Shown here: positions 20,845 through 63,843 of the stretch, piece by piece
How positions within the stretch are numbered: the stretch's first letter is position 1
Layout of the letters: every line of letters begins with the position of its first letter
Source of the DNA: Aphrophora alni
Lineage: Eukaryota > Arthropoda > Insecta > Hemiptera > Aphrophoridae
DNA: 64,000 bases
Direction: 5' to 3'
NCBI GenBank assembly: GCA_963513935.1
Contig: OY740768.1
Coordinates: 69,924,231-69,988,230 of the forward strand
The notes under the pieces: model-generated
What the model was told of the DNA's origin: nothing
Seen by the model: the letters and a program-made list of their open reading frames with translations, nothing else
Database searches by the model: none
Translations under genes and position numbers: made by a program

Positions 20845-23800
20845 GAGATTTCAGTAAAGTAGCACATACAACTTTTCATTTTCTATTAGAAAATTTGTGG
20901 TAATTTCTGAGATTTCAGTAAAGTGGCACATACAACTTTTCATTTTCTATTTGAAAATTTGTGGTAATTTCTGAGATATCAGTAAAGTGGCACATACAAC
21001 TTTTCATTTTCTATTAGAAAATTTGTGGTAATTTCTGAGATTTCAGTAAAGTGGCACATACAACTTTTCATTTTTATTAGAAAATTTGTGGTATCTCTGA
21101 GATATCAGTAAAGTAGCACAAACAACTTTTCATTTTCTATTAGAAAATTTGTGGTAATTTCTGAGATTTCAGTAAAGTGGCACATACAACTTTTCATTTT
21201 TATTAGAAAATTTGTGGTATTTCTGAGATTTCAGTAAAGTGGCACATACAACTTTTCATTTTTATTAGAAAATTTGTGGTATTTCTGAGATATCAGTAAA
21301 GTAGCAAAAAGAACTTTTCATTTTCTATTAGAAAATTTGTGGTAATTTCTGAGATTTCAGTAAAGTGGCACATACAACTTTTCATTTTTATTAGAAAATT
21401 TGTGGTATTTCTGAGATTTCAGTAAAGTGGCACATACAACTTTTCATTTTCTATTAGAAAATTTGTGGTAATTTCTGAGATTTCAGTAAAGTGGCACATA
21501 CAACTTTTCATTTCTATTAGAAAATTTGTGGTATCTCTGAGATATCAGTAAAGTAGCACAAACAACTTTTCATTTTCTATTAGAAAATTTGTGGTAATTT
21601 CTGAGATTTCAGTAAAGTGGCACATACAACTTTTCATTTTTATTAGAAAATTTGTGGTATTTCTGAGATTTCAGTAAAGTGGCACATACAACTTTTCATT
21701 TTTATTAGAAAATTTGTGGTATTTCTGAGATATCAGTAAAGTAGCACAAACAACTTTTCATTTTCTATTAGAAAATTTGTGGTATCTCGGAGATATCAGT
21801 AAAGTAGCACAAACAACTTTTCATTTTCTATTAGAAAATTTGTGGTATCTCTGTGATATCAGTAAAGTAGCACAAACAACTTTTCATTTTTATTAGAAAA
21901 TTTGTGGTATTTCTGAGATATCAGTAAAGTAGCACAAACAACTTTTCATTTTCTATTAGAAAATTTGTGGTATCTCTGAGATATCAGTAAAGTAGCACAA
22001 ACAACTTTTCATTTTCTATTAGAAAATTTGTGGTATCTCTGTGATATCAGTAAAGTAGCACAAACAACTTTTCATTTTTATTAGAAAATTTGTGGTATCT
22101 CTGAGATATCAGTAAAGTAGCACAAACAACTTTTCATTTTCTATTAGAAAATTTGTGGTATCTCTGTGATATCAGTAAAGTAGCACAAACAACTTTTCAT
22201 TTTTATTAGAAAATTTGTGGTATTTCTGAGATTTCAGTAAAGTGGCACATACAACTTTTCATTTTTATTAGAAAATTTGTGGTATTTCTGAGATTTCAGT
22301 AAAGTGGCACATACAACTTTTCATTTTTATTAGAAAATTTGTGGTAATTTCTGAGATTTCAGTAAAGTGGCACATACAACTTTTCATTTTCTATTAGAAA
22401 ATATGTGGTATCTCTGAGATATCAGTAAAGTAGCACAAACAACTTTTCATTTTCTATTAGAAAATTTGTGGTATCTCTGTGATATCAGTAAAGTAGCACA
22501 AACAACTTTTCATTTTCTATTAGAAAATTTGTGGTATTTCTGAGATTTCAGTAAAGTAGCACAAACAACTTTTCATTTTCTATTAGAAAATTTGTGGTAT
22601 CTCTGTGATATCAGTAAAGTAGCACAAACAACTTTTCATTTTCTATTAGAAAATTTGTGGTATTTCTGAGATTTCAGTAAAGTAGCACAAACAACTTTTC
22701 ATTTTCTATTAGAAAATTTGTGGTATTTCTGAGATTTCAGTAAAGTAGCACAAACAACTTTTCATTTTCTATTAGAAAATTTGTGGTAATTTCTGAGATT
22801 TCAGTAAAGTGGCACATACAACTTTTCATTTTTATTAGAAAATTTGTGGTATTTCTGAGATTTCAGTAAAGTAGCACAAACAACTTTTCATTTTCTATTA
22901 GAAAATTTGTGGTATCTCTGTGATATCAGTAAAGTAGCACAAACAACTTTTCATTTTCTATTAGAAAATTTGTGGTATTTCTGAGATTTCAGTAAAGTAG
23001 CACAAACAACTTTTCATTTTCTATTAGAAAATTTGTGGTATCTCTGAGATATCAGTAAAGTAGCACAAACAACTTTTCATTTTCTATTAGAAAATTTGTG
23101 GTAATTTCTGAGATTTCAGTAAAGTGGCACATACAACTTTTCATTTTTATTAGAAAATTTGTGGTATTTCTGAGATTTCAGTAAAGTAGCACAAACAACT
23201 TTTCATTTTCTATTAGAAAATTTGTGGTATCTCTGTGATATCAGTAAAGTAGCACAAACAACTTTTCATTTTCTATTAGAAAATTTGTGGTAATTTCTGA
23301 GATTTCAGTAAAGTGGCACATACAACTTTTCATTTTTATTAGAAAATTTGTGGTATCTCTGAGATATCAGTAAAGTAGCACAAACAACTTTTCATTTTCT
23401 ATTAGAAAATTTGTGGTAATTTCTGAGATTTCAGTAAAGTGGCACATACAACTTTTCATTTTTATTAGAAAATTTGTGGTATTTCTGAGATTTCAGTAAA
23501 GTGGCACATACAACTTTTCATTTTCTATTAGAAAATTTGTGGTAATTTCTGAGATTTCAGTAAAGTGGCACATACAACTTTTCATTTCTATTAGAAAATT
23601 TGTGGTATCTCTGAGATATCAGTAAAGTAGCACAAACAACTTTTCATTTTCTATTAGAAAATTTATGGTAATTTCTGAGATTTCAGTAAAGTGGCACATA
23701 CAACTTTTCATTTTTATTAGAAAATTTGTGGTATTTCTGAGATTTCAGTAAAGTGGCACATACAACTTTTCATTTTTATTAGAAAATTTGTGGTATTTCT

Positions 23801-26800
23801 GAGATATCAGTAAAGTAGCACAAACAACTTTTCATTTTCTATTAGAAAATTTGTGGTATCTCTGAGATATCAGTAAAGTAGCACAAACAACTTTTCATTT
23901 TCTATTAGAAAATTTGTGGTATCTCTGTGATATCAGTAAAGTAGCACAAACAACTTTTCATTTTTATTAGAAAATTTGTGGTATTTCTGAGATATCAGTA
24001 AAGTAGCACAAACAACTTTTCATTTTCTATTAGAAAATTTGTGGTATCTCTGAGATATCAGTAAAGTAGCACAAACAACTTTTCATTTTCTATTAGAAAA
24101 TTTGTGGTATCTCTGTGATATCAGTAAAGTAGCACAAACAACTTTTCATTTTTATTAGAAAATTTGTGGTATCTCTGAGATATCAGTAAAGTAGCACAAA
24201 CAACTTTTCATTTTCTATTAGAAAATTTGTGGTATCTCTGTGATATCAGTAAAGTAGCACAAACAACTTTTCATTTTTATTAGAAAATTTGTGGTATTTC
24301 TGAGATTTCAGTAAAGTGGCACATACAACTTTTCATTTTTATTAGAAAATTTGTGGTATTTCTGAGATTTCAGTAAAGTGGCACATACAACTTTTCATTT
24401 TTATTAGAAAATTTGTGGTAATTTCTGAGATTTCAGTAAAGTGGCACATACAACTTTTCATTTTCTATTAGAAAATATGTGGTATCTCTGAGATATCAGT
24501 AAAGTAGCACAAACAACTTTTCATTTTCTATTAGAAAATTTGTGGTATCTCTGTGATATCAGTAAAGTAGCACAAACAACTTTTCATTTTCTATTAGAAA
24601 ATTTGTGGTATTTCTGAGATTTCAGTAAAGTAGCACAAACAACTTTTCATTTTCTATTAGAAAATTTGTGGTATCTCTGTGATATCAGTAAAGTAGCACA
24701 AACAACTTTTCATTTTCTATTAGAAAATTTGTGGTATTTCTGAGATTTCAGTAAAGTAGCACAAACAACTTTTCATTTTCTATTAGAAAATTTGTGGTAT
24801 TTCTGAGATTTCAGTAAAGTAGCACAAACAACTTTTCATTTTCTATTAGAAAATTTGTGGTATCTCTGTGATATCAGTAAAGTAGCACAAACAACTTTTC
24901 ATTTTCTATTAGAAAATTTGTGGTATTTCTGAGATTTCAGTAAAGTAGCACAAACAACTTTTCATTTTCTATTAGAAAATTTGTGGTATCTCTGAGATAT
25001 CAGTAAAGTAGCACAAACAACTTTTCATTTTCTATTAGAAAATTTGTGGTAATTTCTGAGATTTCAGTAAAGTGGCACATACAACTTTTCATTTTCTATT
25101 AGAAAATTTGTGGTATTTCTGAGATTTCAGTAAAGTAGCACAAACAACTTTTCATTTTCTATTAGAAAATTTGTGGTATCTCTGTGATATCAGTAAAGTA
25201 GCACAAACAACTTTTCATTTTCTATTAGAAAATTTGTGGTATTTCTGAGATTTCAGTAAAGTAGCACAAACAACTTTTCATTTTCTATTAGAAAATTTGT
25301 GGTATTTCTGAGATTTCAGTAAAGTAGCACAAACAACTTTTCATTTTCTATTAGAAAATTTGTGGTATCTCTGTGATATCAGTAAAGTAGCACAAACAAC
25401 TTTTCATTTTCTATTAGAAAATTTGTGGTATTTCTGAGATTTCAGTAAAGTGGCACATACAACTTTTCATTTTTATTAGAAAATTTGTGGTATTTCTGAG
25501 ATATCAGTAAAGTAGCAAAAAGAACTTTTCATTTTCTATTAGAAAATTTGTGGTAATTTCTGAGATTTCAGTAAAGTGGCACATACAACTTTTCATTTTT
25601 ATTAGAAAATTTGTGGTATTTCTGAGATTTCAGTAAAGTGGCACATACAACTTTTCATTTTCTATTAGAAAATTTGTGGTAATTTCTGAGATTTCAGTAA
25701 AGTGGCACATACAACTTTTCATTTCTATTAGAAAATTTGTGGTATCTCTGAGATATCAGTAAAGTAGCACAAACAACTTTTCATTTTCTATTAGAAAATT
25801 TGTGGTAATTTCTGAGATTTCAGTAAAGTGGCACATACAACTTTTCATTTTTATTAGAAAATTTGTGGTATTTCTGAGATTTCAGTAAAGTGGCACATAC
25901 AACTTTTCATTTTTATTAGAAAATTTGTGGTATTTCTGAGATATCAGTAAAGTAGCACAAACAACTTTTCATTTTCTATTAGAAAATTTGTGGTATCTCG
26001 GAGATATCAGTAAAGTAGCACAAACAACTTTTCATTTTCTATTAGAAAATTTGTGGTATCTCTGTGATATCAGTAAAGTAGCACAAACAACTTTTCATTT
26101 TTATTAGAAAATTTGTGGTATTTCTGAGATATCAGTAAAGTAGCACAAACAACTTTTCATTTTCTATTAGAAAATTTGTGGTATCTCTGAGATATCAGTA
26201 AAGTAGCACAAACAACTTTTCATTTTCTATTAGAAAATTTGTGGTATCTCTGTGATATCAGTAAAGTAGCACAAACAACTTTTCATTTTTATTAGAAAAT
26301 TTGTGGTATCTCTGAGATATCAGTAAAGTAGCACAAACAACTTTTCATTTTCTATTAGAAAATTTGTGGTATCTCTGTGATATCAGTAAAGTAGCACAAA
26401 CAACTTTTCATTTTTATTAGAAAATTTGTGGTATTTCTGAGATTTCAGTAAAGTGGCACATACAACTTTTCATTTTTATTAGAAAATTTGTGGTATTTCT
26501 GAGATTTCAGTAAAGTGGCACATACAACTTTTCATTTTTATTAGAAAATTTGTGGTAATTTCTGAGATTTCAGTAAAGTGGCACATACAACTTTTCATTT
26601 TCTATTAGAAAATATGTGGTATCTCTGAGATATCAGTAAAGTAGCACAAACAACTTTTCATTTTCTATTAGAAAATTTGTGGTATCTCTGTGATATCAGT
26701 AAAGTAGCACAAACAACTTTTCATTTTCTATTAGAAAATTTGTGGTATTTCTGAGATTTCAGTAAAGTAGCACAAACAACTTTTCATTTTCTATTAGAAA

Positions 26801-29800
26801 ATTTGTGGTATCTCTGTGATATCAGTAAAGTAGCACAAACAACTTTTCATTTTCTATTAGAAAATTTGTGGTATTTCTGAGATTTCAGTAAAGTAGCACA
26901 AACAACTTTTCATTTTCTATTAGAAAATTTGTGGTATTTCTGAGATTTCAGTAAAGTAGCACAAACAACTTTTCATTTTCTATTAGAAAATTTGTGGTAA
27001 TTTCTGAGATTTCAGTAAAGTGGCACATACAACTTTTCATTTTTATTAGAAAATTTGTGGTATTTCTGAGATTTCAGTAAAGTAGCACAAACAACTTTTC
27101 ATTTTCTATTAGAAAATTTGTGGTATCTCTGTGATATCAGTAAAGTAGCACAAACAACTTTTCATTTTCTATTAGAAAATTTGTGGTATTTCTGAGATTT
27201 CAGTAAAGTAGCACAAACAACTTTTCATTTTCTATTAGAAAATTTGTGGTATCTCTGAGATATCAGTAAAGTAGCACAAACAACTTTTCATTTTCTATTA
27301 GAAAATTTGTGGTAATTTCTGAGATTTCAGTAAAGTGGCACATACAACTTTTCATTTTTATTAGAAAATTTGTGGTATTTCTGAGATTTCAGTAAAGTAG
27401 CACAAACAACTTTTCATTTTCTATTAGAAAATTTGTGGTATCTCTGTGATATCAGTAAAGTAGCACAAACAACTTTTCATTTTCTATTAGAAAATTTGTG
27501 GTAATTTCTGAGATTTCAGTAAAGTGGCACATACAACTTTTCATTTTTATTAGAAAATTTGTGGTATCTCTGAGATATCAGTAAAGTAGCACAAACAACT
27601 TTTCATTTTCTATTAGAAAATTTGTGGTAATTTCTGAGATTTCAGTAAAGTGGCACATACAACTTTTCATTTTTATTAGAAAATTTGTGGTATTTCTGAG
27701 ATTTCAGTAAAGTGGCACATACAACTTTTCATTTTCTATTAGAAAATTTGTGGTAATTTCTGAGATTTCAGTAAAGTGGCACATACAACTTTTCATTTCT
27801 ATTAGAAAATTTGTGGTATCTCTGAGATATCAGTAAAGTAGCACAAACAACTTTTCATTTTCTATTAGAAAATTTATGGTAATTTCTGAGATTTCAGTAA
27901 AGTGGCACATACAACTTTTCATTTTTATTAGAAAATTTGTGGTATTTCTGAGATTTCAGTAAAGTGGCACATACAACTTTTCATTTTTATTAGAAAATTT
28001 GTGGTATTTCTGAGATATCAGTAAAGTAGCACAAACAACTTTTCATTTTCTATTAGAAAATTTGTGGTATCTCTGAGATATCAGTAAAGTAGCACAAACA
28101 ACTTTTCATTTTCTATTAGAAAATTTGTGGTATCTCTGTGATATCAGTAAAGTAGCACAAACAACTTTTCATTTTTATTAGAAAATTTGTGGTATTTCTG
28201 AGATATCAGTAAAGTAGCACAAACAACTTTTCATTTTCTATTAGAAAATTTGTGGTATCTCTGAGATATCAGTAAAGTAGCACAAACAACTTTTCATTTT
28301 CTATTAGAAAATTTGTGGTATCTCTGTGATATCAGTAAAGTAGCACAAACAACTTTTCATTTTTATTAGAAAATTTGTGGTATCTCTGAGATATCAGTAA
28401 AGTAGCACAAACAACTTTTCATTTTCTATTAGAAAATTTGTGGTATCTCTGTGATATCAGTAAAGTAGCACAAACAACTTTTCATTTTTATTAGAAAATT
28501 TGTGGTATTTCTGAGATTTCAGTAAAGTGGCACATACAACTTTTCATTTTTATTAGAAAATTTGTGGTATTTCTGAGATTTCAGTAAAGTGGCACATACA
28601 ACTTTTCATTTTTATTAGAAAATTTGTGGTAATTTCTGAGATTTCAGTAAAGTGGCACATACAACTTTTCATTTTCTATTAGAAAATATGTGGTATCTCT
28701 GAGATATCAGTAAAGTAGCACAAACAACTTTTCATTTTCTATTAGAAAATTTGTGGTATCTCTGTGATATCAGTAAAGTAGCACAAACAACTTTTCATTT
28801 TCTATTAGAAAATTTGTGGTATTTCTGAGATTTCAGTAAAGTAGCACAAACAACTTTTCATTTTCTATTAGAAAATTTGTGGTATCTCTGTGATATCAGT
28901 AAAGTAGCACAAACAACTTTTCATTTTCTATTAGAAAATTTGTGGTATTTCTGAGATTTCAGTAAAGTAGCACAAACAACTTTTCATTTTCTATTAGAAA
29001 ATTTGTGGTATTTCTGAGATTTCAGTAAAGTAGCACAAACAACTTTTCATTTTCTATTAGAAAATTTGTGGTATCTCTGTGATATCAGTAAAGTAGCACA
29101 AACAACTTTTCATTTTCTATTAGAAAATTTGTGGTATTTCTGAGATTTCAGTAAAGTAGCACAAACAACTTTTCATTTTCTATTAGAAAATTTGTGGTAT
29201 CTCTGAGATATCAGTAAAGTAGCACAAACAACTTTTCATTTTCTATTAGAAAATTTGTGGTAATTTCTGAGATTTCAGTAAAGTGGCACATACAACTTTT
29301 CATTTTCTATTAGAAAATTTGTGGTATTTCTGAGATTTCAGTAAAGTAGCACAAACAACTTTTCATTTTCTATTAGAAAATTTGTGGTATCTCTGTGATA
29401 TCAGTAAAGTAGCACAAACAACTTTTCATTTTCTATTAGAAAATTTGTGGTATTTCTGAGATTTCAGTAAAGTAGCACAAACAACTTTTCATTTTCTATT
29501 AGAAAATTTGTGGTATTTCTGAGATTTCAGTAAAGTAGCACAAACAACTTTTCATTTTCTATTAGAAAATTTGTGGTATCTCTGTGATATCAGTAAAGTA
29601 GCACAAACAACTTTTCATTTTCTATTAGAAAATTTGTGGTATTTCTGAGATTTCAGTAAAGTAGCACAAACAACTTTTCATTTTCTATTAGAAAATTTGT
29701 GGTATCTCTGAGATATCAGTAAAGTAGCACAAACAACTTTTCATTTTCTATTAGAAAATTTGTGGTAATTTCTGAGATTTCAGTAAAGTGGCACATACAA

Positions 29801-30690
29801 CTTTTCATTTTTATTAGAAAATTTGTGGTATCTCTGTGATATCAGTAAAGTAGCACAAACAACTTTTCATTTTCTATTAGAAAATTTGTGGTAATTTCTG
29901 AGATTTCAGTAAAGTGGCACATACAACTTTTCATTTTTATTAGAAAATTTGTGGTATTTCTGAGATTTCAGTAAAGTGGCACATACAACTTTTCATTTTT
30001 ATTAGAAAATTTGTGGTATTTCTGAGATTTCAGTAAAGTGGCACATACAACTTTTCATTTTTATTAGAAAATTTGTGGTATTTCTGAGATTTCAGTAAAG
30101 TAGCACAAACAACTTTTCATTTTCTATTAGAAAATTTGTGGTATCTCTGAGATATCAGTAAAGTAGCACAAACAACTTTTCATTTTCTATTAGAAAATTT
30201 GTGGTAATTTCTGAGATTTCAGTAAAGTGGCACATACAACTTTTCATTTTTATTAGAAAATTTGTGGTATTTCTGAGATTTCAGTAAAGTAGCACAAACA
30301 ACTTTTCATTTTCTATTAGAAAATTTGTGGTATCTCTGTGATATCAGTAAAGTAGCACAAACAACTTTTCATTTTCTATTAGAAAATTTGTGGTAATTTC
30401 TGAGATTTCAGTAAAGTGGCACATACAACTTTTCATTTTTATTAGAAAATTTGTGGTATTTCTGAGATTTCAGTAAAGTGGCACATACAACTTTTCATTT
30501 TTATTAGAAAATTTGTGGTATTTCTGAGATTTCAGTAAAGTGGCACATACAACTTTTCATTTTTATTAGAAAATTTGTGGTATTTCTGAGATTTCAGTAA
30601 AGTGGCACATACAACTTTTCATTTTTATTAGAAAATTTGTGGTATCTCTGAGATATCAGTAAAGTAGCACATATAACTTTTCATTTTCTA
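20845..30690. repeat. Satellite array, about 156 units of 62-64 bp, with 4,211-bp higher-order repeat
   Basis: Each unit contains 'cagtaaagt', 'gcaca.acaacttttcatt', 'attagaaaatttgtggta' and 'tctgagat'. Variation falls in a few classes: gtggcacata or gtagcacaaa, tttc or atatc, cattttctattag or catttttattag, ggtaatt or ggtatt. Rare variants recur at fixed distances: 'agcaaaaagaac' near 21303 and 25514; 'atctcgg' at 21788 and 25999; 'aaatttatgg' near 23661 and 27872. All are 4,211 bp apart. 'aaaatatgtgg' (22401, 24475, 26612, 28686) and 'catttctattag' (21509, 23583, 25720, 27794) step by 2,074, 2,137 and 2,074. So a subunit of about 2.1 kb is doubled, and the 4,211-bp block itself is present twice, about 21222-25432 and 25433-29643. 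Confidence 0.97.
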
Positions 30691-55449: not shown

Positions 55450-55523
55450 CCAAAACCCTAAATATATTTTTATATACGTATACCTTATGTCCGTCTTGGC
55501 AATTCATTCGTTGTGTTACTCAC

Positions 55524-55557
55524 TGCAGCTGTTTCGCCATCAATGCGGTATCATCAG
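55524..55557 (-). ncRNA. Hammerhead-like motif, left arm copy
   Basis: Minus strand: CTGATGA (55557-55551), T, ACCG...TGGC as a damaged stem II, GAAA (55535-55532), then CAGCTGCAGTG. The core box is intact. Stem II has lost a base compared with the right-arm copy, and stem III is not a perfect palindrome. Confidence 0.45.
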
Positions 55558-55672
55558 GTGAATATTACAGAACATATACAACATAATTATACGTACACTA
55601 ACATAAATACTGGACAGTTAAATTGGTTGTTGTTATTGTAGGTATATGTTGCATAATGTTTGTAATTTTCAC

Positions 55673-55706
55673 ATGATGATACCGCATTGATCGGCGAAAC
55701 AGCTGC
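55673..55706 (+). ncRNA. Hammerhead-like motif, right arm copy
   Basis: Plus strand: ATGATGA (55673-55679; C3 mutated), T, stem II ACCG/CGGC (55681-55684 with 55692-55695, three of four pairs), GAAA (55696-55699), CAGCTG. The two arms complement each other: one keeps the core box, the other keeps stem II. Confidence 0.45.
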
Positions 55707-56360
55707 AGTGAGTAACACAACGAAAGAATTGCAAAGTCGCACATATACAAATTTGTAGTTTAAAAAAAATGTAAGTTTAGATACATGTAAAATGTCTACT
55801 TAAATAAAGTTATAAAATAGATGCAGTAATTAAAATAAAACGTAGCAACGTAAATGTAACGTGATTTAAGAATATATAATTTGAATATAATATAAAATTT
55901 ACCTGAACTACAACATTTACAATCGTTCAAATTTGTATTCAAAAAGATAACTTAAATCAATACGAACAGCTGATCACGAGAGAAATATGAGTAAAATAGT
56001 GGAGCAGATGGTGCAGTTGGATTGTGTATATATGGTTGTAGATTAGGAAGATGCTATTCGTAACGAAAACAACAAATGAATGCTTTAATTTCAAAACGAT
56101 CTAAGTGCCAAAAATTAATATATATATTTTTTAATTGCAAAGTGATCTAAGTATCAACGCCAATGCACGTCTATAAGATCTATATGCCAAATAATTTTCT
56201 GTTGGTTTTTATAGCCTTCCATAGAATGCGCTGTGTGTATGTCCAGTGGGAGCGCCTTTCAATTCGATCTAAGTGCCACCTGCTTGGAATTGGTTTGTTT
56301 ACATGACATGAAACTGCTCTGTTGCACAACACTTTGTTATTGTTTTTTACAAGGTTTTAA

Positions 56361-57288
56361 TTGTTTTTGATTATAATTATGATGGATTGTGTTGTGAAAA
56401 AAGCTGGTAAGGCTTTGGAAACCATGAAAAATGATGCAATTTGTAGCACAAGACCGGGCAGTACTACTATCAATATAGTAATGGACTTACAGAAAGTCTT
56501 TCCCATCCCAAAGCTCACACACAGTGACATGTATTACAGCCGCCAACTTTCCTGCTACAATTTTGGAATCCATGTTACTAATAACGCAGATGGTATTATG
56601 TGTGTTTGGCACGAAGGGCAATCGGGACGTGGTGCCAATCAGATGGCGTCTTGTCTCTTCCAAGCAATAAACTCTGATCTTCTGTCAACTACTGATAAAA
56701 AACATTTAGTTGTTTGGTCCGATAACTGTGCTGGTCAGTTAAAAAACAGAATGTTAGTATTTTTGTATAAATACTTAGTATACATTGGAATGTTTGACAC
56801 TATCGAACACAAATTTCTAGTGACAGGGCACAGCTTTTCATATGCCGACAGAGATTTTGCGCTGATTGAAAAGCGAGCTAAAAAATGTTCGCAGATGGAA
56901 ACTGTTGAGCATGTGATGAATATTATAGCTACAGCTAGGCCTTCCAAACCATTTAAAGTTCTGAACATGAGTGAAAAGTTTTTTAAATTTTGATTTGGCA
57001 GGAGAAAATTATATAACAACTAAAAAACTGGGAATTTCATCTATATCAATGATAAAAATCTGCAAAGATGAACCAAACAATGTCCTCTTCAAAACATCTT
57101 TTTTCGGCGATTGGCAAAAGTGCAACGTGTTAAAAAAAGGAGTTAAGATTGAAGATCTCACCAATATGACACTTGAAATTCTTCTTACCTCAGTGCCAAT
57201 ATCTGAAAATAAAAAGAAGGACCTACGTGCTATGCTGGACTACATTTCAGAGCCAAACAGAACCTTTTACGCCAATTTGTGCGCCTAA
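56361..57288 (+). pseudogene. DUF7869-type protein, candidate transposase, one frameshift
   Basis: Two overlapping frames (56361-56993 and about 56985-57288) form one product of about 300 residues, joined by a single frameshift at a T run near 56990. Landmarks in the first frame: MDLQKVFPIPKLTHSDMYY (residues 41-59), QLSCYNFGIH, ARG-rich SGRGANQMASC, VVWSDNCAGQLKN (118-129) and ADRDFALIEKR (162-172). This order is that of arthropod proteins annotated as DUF7869. Asp42, Asp121 and Asp163/165 or Glu170 sit in the most conserved blocks and could form an RNase H-fold DDE/D triad (inference). The N-terminal CxxC region present in element 2 is missing here, so the gene is also 5' truncated. It lies alone between TIRs. 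Confidence 0.75.
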
Positions 57289-57464
57289 GATCCATAGGAC
57301 TTAGATCGGTTTGAAAGAAAACCAGCCATGTACATAGATCGTTCTGCTGACTGGGTACATCAAATTTTTTTTCTTCCTTGTGTGTTTTAATAATTTAATT
57401 TTTTAACATAAGAGCACTTTTTTATGTTTTTAACTTATGTAAAAATAATGTTGTACCCTATTGA

Positions 57465-57470
57465 AATAAA
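57465..57470 (+). promoter_or_regulatory. Polyadenylation signal AATAAA of element 1
   Basis: AATAAA stands about 180 bp after the end of the DUF7869-type frame and 51 bp before the right TIR, where a transcript of the element would be expected to end. Confidence 0.5.
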
Positions 57471-57554
57471 ACTATTATAAAACTACAGTGTTTTTATTGA
57501 TTACCCGAAAATTTACGTTATGGCACTTAGATCGCTTTGAAATTAAAGCATTCA

Positions 57555-57984
57555 AATGTTCAAGTCCTAGCCTTTCAACTCAAAGTTTTACATCATGTTC
57601 ATACTCAAGAGACATTGATTTAGTTTTATTCATAAGACCTAATATCTTATTCTATTAACCTTAGTAATATAACTTTTTTAAACCCTACATTTTCTTTATT
57701 TGTTATTTATTTATTGTTTTCTTATATTTTTAACGACTTATGTAGGTTATGAATTCCCATTGAGTATAAGGACTATACAATTACTATAATTAAAGTAAAG
57801 TATTTGATTTTATTACAATTTGAATATCTATATAGTAATTTTAATTACGTGTACGGAATGATAGGTATGTTATATTTAAAATGTTAAAGAACCCAGACAA
57901 CAATTTTTTATAAAAATCATCAAATATTGATATACAATTGATTATAATATAGGGAAGACGTAGAAATGAACGTTTATTTTCAAT
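57555..57984. other. Unassigned A+T-rich sequence
   Basis: Nothing recognised. Confidence 0.4.
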
Positions 57985-58348
57985 TGCTTGGTCAAGTCAA
58001 GTCACGGCACGTCACGTCACGTCACGTCACGTCACGTCAAGTCAAGTCAAGTCACGTTACGTCCGTTACAAAACGTAACGCCATGTCAAGTCAAGTCACG
58101 TTACGTCACGTCACGTCACGTCAAGTCACGTCAAGTCACGTTACGTCACATCACGTCACGTTACGTCTGTTACATCACGTAACGCCATGTCAAGTCAAGT
58201 CACGTTACGTCACGTCACGTCACGTCACGTCAAGTCAAGTCAAGTCACGTTACGTCACATCACGTCACGTTACGTCTGTTACATCACGTAACGCCATGTC
58301 AAGTCAAGTCACGTTACGTCACGTCACGTCACGTCACGTCAAGTCACG
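57985..58348. repeat. GTCAC/GTCAA pentamer array with about 105-bp higher-order unit
   Basis: The segment is built almost only from gtcac and gtcaa pentamers, with gttac variants. The longer phrase 'cgtaacgccatgtcaagtca' recurs near 58074, 58178 and 58287 (steps 104 and 109 bp), preceded each time by 'gttacgtc.gttaca'. So pentamers are organised in a unit of 21-22 copies. A run of about 13 G follows at 58371-58385. The long open frames are repeat artefacts (VTSRHVTSRQ-like). Confidence 0.95.
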
Positions 58349-58385
58349 TGGAATTATATTGAGGTGTAAGTAGGGGGGGGGGGGG

Positions 58386-62160: not shown

Positions 62161-63843
62161 TGAAGCATGCATTTCCAAAAGGGTGTAAGTGCCAAAGAGT
62201 AAATTTTTCAGGAGATAAAAAAAACATTTTTTTTCATAAAAACATTTATTTATTTACCTTTAAAGCAAATTTTCAAACAATTTCATAAATGATACAAGAG
62301 TTTTTGCATTTATAAAAATTTAGGTAAAATTTAAAAGGAAAAAAATTAAAGGAAAAAAACTGTTTTATCTAGGTGCAAGTCATAAGGCTGTAAGTTCCAC
62401 TATGCAACTCTTGCTTAGAGATCTGTATTATTGTCCGGAGTCTGTAGAGGTGGTGTTTCTGCCAATAACTCCTCGAAGTACCCACGTGATTCCGGCTTTA
62501 GGTAAGGGATTATCTTGATGATGTCTTCCCTTTACTTTTGTGGGATTCCCCACTTTGTTCTCATTGAAGGAAGCTGCAGACTCTTAAAATCATCAATACT
62601 CACTCCATTCTTAATGACTTTTATTGGGTCACTCCAGCCAGCTGCTTCTGATCCCCCTTTTGCTACCATCACACCACCAAAGTCTGCAACTGTCAAACGG
62701 AGCTGCGAGGCTTTAGAGATTCCTAGCTTCTTGGGATCCAGAAACTTTTGTGAGATCTCTTTGAAATTGTAGAACTCTTCTACCACAGTGCAGTAAAACG
62801 GATTTTCTGAGCATTACTTGTTATGATTTGAACCAAATCCATAATAGTGTTAGGATTGCATTTTCTTCTATGTTTTTCTATCAAAGAAAAGTCCCTGTCA
62901 CAAGTCAAAAAAGTATGGCCTTTGATAGGGAACTTGTGAATGATTTCATCAAACTTACTAGTAGCTATTAAAACTAGGTACATGGTGATCATGTATTGGT
63001 TTTTGTTTTGACCACCGCAATTGTCTGACCATACTACCAGTTTTCTTTTGTTAGTTCTACATTGAGTAGTTAGGTATTGATAAAGGCAAGAAGAGATTTC
63101 CAAGGACCCCCGACCACCATAGTTTTCCGACCACAAGAACATAAAACCCTTATCTACTGTAGAGTCATGAATCCCTAAATTGCAACATGCTAGTTGTTGT
63201 GAATAATACATCTCAGTATGTGTTAACTGAGGAAGATACATCTGCTGTTGCAGGTAAAACGATAGTACCTGAGCATCTGAATCTTTGTCATTGCATTAGT
63301 AATAGCTTCGGCGCGTCTGTGGTGTAGTTCTTGCTCTACTTTTGCAGCCAATACGCCAGATTGTACTTTAATATGCAGTTGGTCACAGGTCGAACAAGTA
63401 TCTACCCTTGGTCTATGAAAAGATAAATTGAACTTCGTCAACAAAATTTCATTGTACCACTGCCTAGTGATTGGGGGGTTCCTAAAATGAAACTCTTCGG
63501 AATGTTTCTCCAAAAATGAACGATACATACCTCCATCTCATAAAAAACTATTTAATATTATATTTTAACTGAAATAAACTGTTAAAATTATACAGCGCAA
63601 ACAGCTATGCAAGTCAAGTAGCGTACCGCTCACCTACACTGAGTGATCTCAAACTGTTGCACCAAGGGACATACACCCTTTTGACTTGCACAACAACAAA
63701 AGTTCACATTTGGCCCACAAGGAGCGCCAGCACCGCTGTAATACTTTGAAAACTGATATTTCGTGGCACTTACAACCCGATTACACAGAAAACGTAATTT
63801 CGTCCATTTTGGCACTTACATCCTTTTGGAAATGCACGCTTCA
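62161..63843 (-). mobile_element. TIR transposon carrying a DUF7869-type gene (element 2)
   Basis: 34-bp TIRs at 62161-62194 and 63810-63843 differ at two positions. They begin TGAAGC.TGCATTTCC and end TGTAAGTGCCA. Extra copies of the inner half occur near 62381-62400, 63664-63688 and 63763-63778. TA flanks both ends (62159-62160, 63844-63845). TIR length, the TGAA start, the TAAGTGCCA inner end and the subterminal copies repeat the plan of element 1, but the sequences differ enough to be a separate family. The only recognisable gene is the DUF7869-type frame at 62415-63545. Length 1,683 bp. Confidence 0.82.
62415..63545 (-). pseudogene. DUF7869-type protein, candidate transposase, one shift and one stop
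   Basis: Minus strand: GGMYRSFLEKHSEE starts near 63534, then HRPRVDTCSTCDQLHIK (CxxC motif typical of the family's N-terminal half) and a helical stretch VEQELHHRRAEAI. A frameshift near 63270-63290 leads to VLSFYLQQQMYLPQLTHTEM, where the Asp of the usual SFDLQQ is Tyr. ACCNLGIH, GGRGSLEISSCL, VVWSDNCGGQNKN and TCDRDFSLIEKHRRK follow. The last part has DPKKLGISKASQL, SDPIKVIKNGVSIDDFKSLQ, a stop at about 62530, then REDIIKIIPYLKPESRGYFE and a natural end near 62415. It is more complete than element 1's gene. A donor-like 'taggtgagc' near 63634 (minus strand) leaves room for a small upstream exon. Confidence 0.77.

Follow-up and report, generated by a model that had tools for sequence, protein, structure and literature searches.

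The window analysed here, a 64-kb stretch of the 1.7-Gb Aphrophora alni genome (C3:69924231-69988230), contains a 1478-bp element at positions 56077-57554 on the forward strand, which carries a gene of the DUF7869 family (PF25273). The element begins with TG, ends with CA and is flanked by a 2-bp AA duplication (56075-56076 and 57555-57556) in the site CA-AA-TG. Its terminal inverted repeats (TIRs) are 34 bp long and differ by one mismatch: the left TIR, with the inner motif GATCTAAGTGCCA, occupies 56077-56110 on the forward strand, and the right TIR occupies 57521-57554 on the reverse strand. Runs of (TA)n aside, they form the only pair in the window with at most one mismatch at a spacing of 1-4.5 kb. 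The inner motif recurs in subterminal position at 56135-56156 and 56257-56278 (both forward), with an inverted copy at 57294-57324 (reverse), and an AATAAA poly(A) signal lies at 57465-57470 (forward). The profile match to DUF7869 reaches 54.5 bits (E 1.4e-14) against a curated cut-off of 26. In all these respects, namely the near-perfect inverted repeats, the limits of the element, the type of gene, the subterminal motifs and the poly(A) signal, the initial annotation of this DNA was accurate; its single frame at 56361-57288, by contrast, is made up of two overlapping open reading frames (ORFs) in different frames.

The first of these, 56361-56993, counts 210 codons from a TTG and 204 from the ATG at 56379. 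The 204-residue product (56379-56993, forward) is truncated, a deletion having joined the opening codons of exon 1 directly to the RNase H core. Its putative catalytic Asp codons lie in MDLQK (56484-56486), WSDNC (56721-56723) and ADRDF (56847-56849), followed by the Glu codon of an IEK motif (56868-56870), all on the forward strand. The second ORF, 56971-57288 (forward), encodes the C-terminal part of the same gene, displaced by a frameshift in the window copy. The intact organization is seen in a longer copy of 2533 bp, L009, where a 511-codon ORF is preceded by an exon-like stretch with GT/AG borders (assigned by eye), forming a two-exon gene. The homologue P0013 runs without gaps across the exon junction (again by eye), and the full-length protein, estimated from the two exons, measures about 570 residues.

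Comparison of the copies identifies the window element as an internal-deletion derivative of this 2.5-kb transposon, shortened, frameshifted and no longer complete. Copies of its length class lack all sequence between MMDCV and KKAGKA, a loss of about 1.06 kb from the N-terminal part of the coding region. The deleted part carries a CxCxxxC motif, a helix pair at residues 86-108 of the P0005 model that is predicted to be helix-turn-helix-like, and a CxxC...H motif. A 302-codon frame spanning the core and the C-terminus is open in five of the 11 copies of the class, and for this reason the window copy is judged to be frameshifted; identity within the class is 98.8-100% among the seven of 11 copies compared. 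Two deletion classes of different size exist (L001-L008 with L015-L017; and L018-L021, L026, L027 and L029-L038), both of which retain the catalytic core and lack the N-terminal half.

A DNA search of the genome, in which 40 of 54 candidates were scored, yields 105 matching pieces, many of them a TIR aligned with the opposite TIR, and about 30 full-length copies. In all, 38 loci are named (L001-L038), and the ends are compared in 32 of them, leaving aside L014, L022 and L028, in which one end is absent at up to two mismatches, and L023-L025, which belong to other families. In 28 of the 32 copies the two bases outside TG...CA agree, and in none do three bases agree; the 2-bp match fails in L010, L013 and L015/L016. 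All 32 copies have T at position +3, and 30 have A at position -3. The matching duplications comprise AA (9), TT (7), TA (5), AT (4), GT (2) and TG (1). Since the duplicated dinucleotides vary and are enclosed by A and T at -3 and +3, insertion involves an A-NN-T site with a stagger of 2 bp, and targeting of TA only is excluded. L015 and L016 (C2:96917626-96926674) have identical flanks, stand in opposite orientation and lie about 7.6 kb apart, which is a sign of an inverted duplication, so that the pair represents one insertion. A 6-bp duplication (CAAATG, CATTTG) was also considered and rejected, as the outer bases often differ; agreement over 6 bp occurs in one of the 32 copies, L032, within a TA run.

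The flanks of L008, joined with a single AA, match four other places in the genome over 360 of 360 bases, and the junction can be read in all four; L008 therefore inserted precisely and duplicated 2 bp of its target. A 1-bp duplication, which one extra A could suggest when L008 is compared with a paralogous empty site, a repeat in the flank of L010, is rejected by the four exact empty sites and by the varied dinucleotides. The DNA that carries the empty site is itself a repeat of recent origin, 3.2 kb or more in length (L085-L088), 98-100% identical between copies and without a long ORF. A genome-wide scan for the TIR, allowing up to three mismatches, gives 66 matches (51 exact, 15 with one mismatch), against none for the reversed TIR used as control. 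They form 31 pairs spanning 968-2551 bp and four singles. By tblastn the core region is present in 31 of the 32 two-ended copies, a favourable outcome of the check suggested in the initial annotation, which was to ask whether such pairs bracket a DUF7869 frame. The remaining copy, L013 (968 bp), is the same element from which the core was lost through internal deletion. Asp occupies all three catalytic positions in 30 of the 32, with L012 carrying Asn at the third.

The element is one of many. A family search of the genome returns 1239 candidate places, of which all 150 that were scored lie above the cut-off, and the same search finds none in 14 control genomes. Nine groups were examined: the family of the window element (F1), seven others (F2-F8) and another DUF7869 element within the window. 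This second window element, of the same superfamily and, like the internal deletion, not noted in the initial annotation, covers 1683 bp on the reverse strand (62161-63843), with the TIR TGAAGCRTGCATTTCCAAAAGG (two mismatches in 34) and a TA duplication; its DUF7869 gene, also on the reverse strand, is split into several ORFs, with the domain match at 62801-63160. TIR pairs are found in six groups, namely F1, F2, F5, F7, F8 and the second window element. Clean 2-bp duplications flank four of four F2 copies, three of three F8 copies and two of two F7 copies, a third F7 copy being without its left end, and the duplication AC also occurs among the copies of families other than F1. The TIRs of these families start with TGAAGC, TGAATC or TGTGAG. 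An inner TIR block resembling TAAGTGCCA is common to F1, F5, F6 and F8, where the F8 version reads TAAATGCCA; in F7 the block is shorter (TAAGT), and in F2 it is different. Copies are 99.9-100% identical in F8 and 99.5-99.8% in F2, so that both families moved recently. In 10 copies of four families whose ends were set by hand (F5a, c, d, e, f and F7a excluded), DUF7869 is the only ORF of at least 100 codons, apart from a 122-codon ORF on the opposite strand in F7.

The conserved acids were followed through 79 close and 120 distant homologues, which form one family by profile comparison (79 versus 24 sequences; probability 99.8, E 2.7e-29, 503 columns). All 79 close homologues keep the first two Asp, and 78 of them also have the (C/A)D Asp; among the distant ones, the three Asp occur in 119, 120 and 116 sequences. 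All three are present in 193 of the 199 sequences, and in 192 of these 193 the second is separated from the third by 41 residues. The initial annotation expected the order Asp/Asp/Glu (or Asp), and three conserved acidic positions are indeed present, with the third more likely supplied as Asp by (C/A)-D-(R/W)-x-F than as Glu by IEK. A D-D-E triad could appeal to Glu392, which all 79 close homologues share; the same position is Lys in 118 of the 120 distant homologues, Ser in F7, Lys in F2 and F4 and Arg in F3, and F2 and F7 nonetheless have near-identical multi-copy insertions. Asp385, in turn, is conserved in both groups and takes the third position in the final core helix of the model. As the IEK Glu gives way to Lys, Ser or Arg in other families, the sequences favour a D-D-D triad, and a triad completed by Glu appears improbable.

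The window protein is modelled as an RNase H core, in line with the fold anticipated by the initial annotation, and among the 50 structural matches listed all are integrases or transposases. The assignment of the predicted fold is based on VIA re-alignment and on the order of strands. Sequence searches for relatives of known structure, and NCBIfam and PHROGs queried with four proteins, give nothing significant. Foldseek against viral models gives nothing at E <= 0.001, viral contigs contain two pattern matches, neither of them a relative, and phages show no match for the one protein queried.

Taken together, these are elements with TIRs, dispersed in the genome and recently moved, with 2-bp duplications, exact empty sites of one insertion and one long gene. 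With TIRs at the exact ends of the copies, a duplication of fixed length, and a predicted RNase H fold with three acids, they appear to behave like DDE/D cut-and-paste transposons. The DUF7869 proteins are very probably the transposases of such a superfamily, in which they would carry out the cutting and joining. The claim of the initial annotation that the protein is the transposase thus gains support at the level of the family, and not for the truncated, frameshifted copy in the window. In the proposed mechanism, the N-terminal Cys motifs and the helix-turn-helix-like pair would bind the TIR and the subterminal repeats. The CxxC...H motif follows, and then the RNase H core, in which the three Asp would hold two metal ions. 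The core would cut the element loose at TG...CA and link these ends to the two strands of an A-NN-T target at positions 2 bp from each other, and gap filling would then leave the 2-bp duplication, as the duplications and empty sites suggest. The deletion of about 1.06 kb removed the N-terminal part and spared the ends and the catalytic core, giving a non-autonomous element. Longer copies, L009 among them, may have mobilized derivatives of the window type in trans, and the window copy has since acquired its frameshift.

Several observations weigh against this interpretation. In the multi-copy groups F3 and F4 no full TIR pair could be made out within the DNA around the copies examined, and in F6 the right end is seen and the left end was not found. 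F5 is weak, with a clean 2-bp duplication in two of six two-ended copies, plus one more if a mutated end base is allowed. The TA duplications of F8a, which lies in a (TA)n run, and of F2, which lies in TATA-like sites, say little alone. Empty sites, proposed as a check in the initial annotation, were obtained in four exact instances for L008 and not for the window copy: a search with its flanks returned the flanks themselves and eight weak, partial matches, and in none of these is the junction cleanly crossed. Foldseek returns nothing at E <= 0.001, and its top rows for the window core are Piwi proteins, a Holliday junction resolvase, MutS, NurA and ribosomal proteins. The interpretation itself is drawn from sequence and predicted structure.

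Other repeats lie in the window. Directly upstream, 55486-55745 consists of two nested inverted repeats with arms of 53 and 47 nt, resembling a miniature inverted-repeat transposable element. Directly downstream, 57991-58349 is a GTCAC-based minisatellite with a 109-bp higher unit, overlapped by a 135-codon ORF that is probably spurious. Further away in the window, 20845-30690 is a satellite array of about 157 copies of a 63-bp unit with 94% matches.

An unrelated transposase encoded elsewhere could move the elements, with DUF7869 as a passenger or accessory gene. The window copy, which is without an intact gene, implies that some copies moved in trans, and what is seen directly are ends and duplications, not catalysis. 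Against this, four diverged families whose TIRs differ contain no other long ORF, the protein has a predicted integrase-like fold with conserved acids, and the core is missing from only one, internally deleted, copy among the 32 two-ended ones. A passenger role is very improbable. A host gene with a role other than transposition, enclosed by chance between inverted repeats, has nothing in its favour beyond the DUF label; the roughly 30 dispersed full-length copies, the exact insertion junctions with their empty sites and the 1239 candidates genome-wide contradict it, and its probability is close to nil.

With the DUF7869 protein as the preferred candidate for the transposase, a broader proposal appears reasonably likely: DUF7869 may define an undescribed superfamily of animal cut-and-paste transposons, with a DD41D transposase, TG...CA ends and a 2-bp duplication within A-NN-T. 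Besides insects, which supply the closest named homologues, DUF7869 proteins are present in molluscs, sponges, corals and a crinoid. The superfamily would include derivatives without the N-terminal DNA-binding half that keep an open core ORF and may regulate their own transposase. In the open-licence literature, a search that did not extend to Repbase and Dfam, no paper was found that names DUF7869 or PF25273 or any of six forms of the second motif; we hold the broader proposal less firmly because a prior name in Repbase or Dfam is possible. If correct, it would assign a role to a Pfam family of such abundance in one genome, and many 'uncharacterized proteins' could be reclassified as transposases or their remains. 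The near-identical copies with open frames and the defined target site would make the mechanism directly testable.

Alternatively, the elements could be divergent representatives of an established superfamily (Tc1/mariner, PHIS/ISL2EU or CACTA/Plavaka), catalogued in Pfam under a different name. In favour of this, the predicted core has Mos1 among its best structural matches, and a weak similarity to DDE_Tnp_ISAZ013 (E 0.048) is seen in one distant homologue. On the other side, the best 25 of 45 families for the 79 homologues (E <= 5) include no known transposase model, and specifically no match to DDE_Tnp_4, to a Tc1/mariner transposase profile or to Transposase_21. In the published descriptions by which the classes are judged here, Tc1/mariner is defined by TA targets only, ISL2EU by AT targets only with a YqaJ ORF, and CMC by C(2)C and H(3-4)H motifs (PMC10045372, PMC4482050, PMC12730594). 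The sequences of the DUF7869 elements lack the features that define Tc1/mariner, ISL2EU, CMC and the integrases, and membership in a known superfamily is unlikely, if still a serious contender.

The 2-bp duplication with A before and T after the target recalls the TA of Tc1/mariner and ISL2EU (PHIS), for which a 2-bp duplication in an A|AT|T target is described (PMC4482050). DUF7869 elements differ in that the duplicated bases include AA, TT, GT, AT, TG and AC; among the 28 matching duplications of F1, AT occurs in only four and TA in only five. Most autonomous PHIS/ISL2EU members have a second ORF with a YqaJ domain; a second ORF above 122 codons, and hence one of YqaJ size, is lacking in 10 of 10 measured copies of the four families. 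From Tc1/mariner (ITm) elements such as Mos1, the DUF7869 proteins are further set apart by the second block DNCxxQNKN and by the extra CxCxxxC and CxxC...H motifs. In the CMC group, the 2-bp duplications and TGT..ACA ends of PlavakaA (PMC12730594) constitute a likeness, as do a CACTA-type Schistosoma element with 2-bp repeats in seven of 14 copies and its CXXC motif (PMC1636069). The C(2)C motif between the second Asp and the last acid, however, is absent from all 78 close and from 106 of 115 distant homologues (present in nine), and H(3-4)H occurs in none of the 78 and three of the 115, so that both are rare rather than strictly absent in the distant sequences. The C/DxxH motif of the hAT, MuDR, P, Kolobok and Dada transposases is found in this interval in only four of 78 close and eight of 115 distant homologues. 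Retroviral-type integrases have an HHCC zinc domain ahead of the core. Such an architecture, which the 79 close homologues had suggested (H137 in 76, H147 in 79), was rejected, as neither His is among the listed residues of the 120 distant homologues; the HH is not general, and the CC is kept in both groups. The DUF7869 element also differs from the retroviral integrase system in its 2-bp duplication, compared with 4-6 bp (PMC10045372), and in being a DNA element with short TIRs and without another long ORF.
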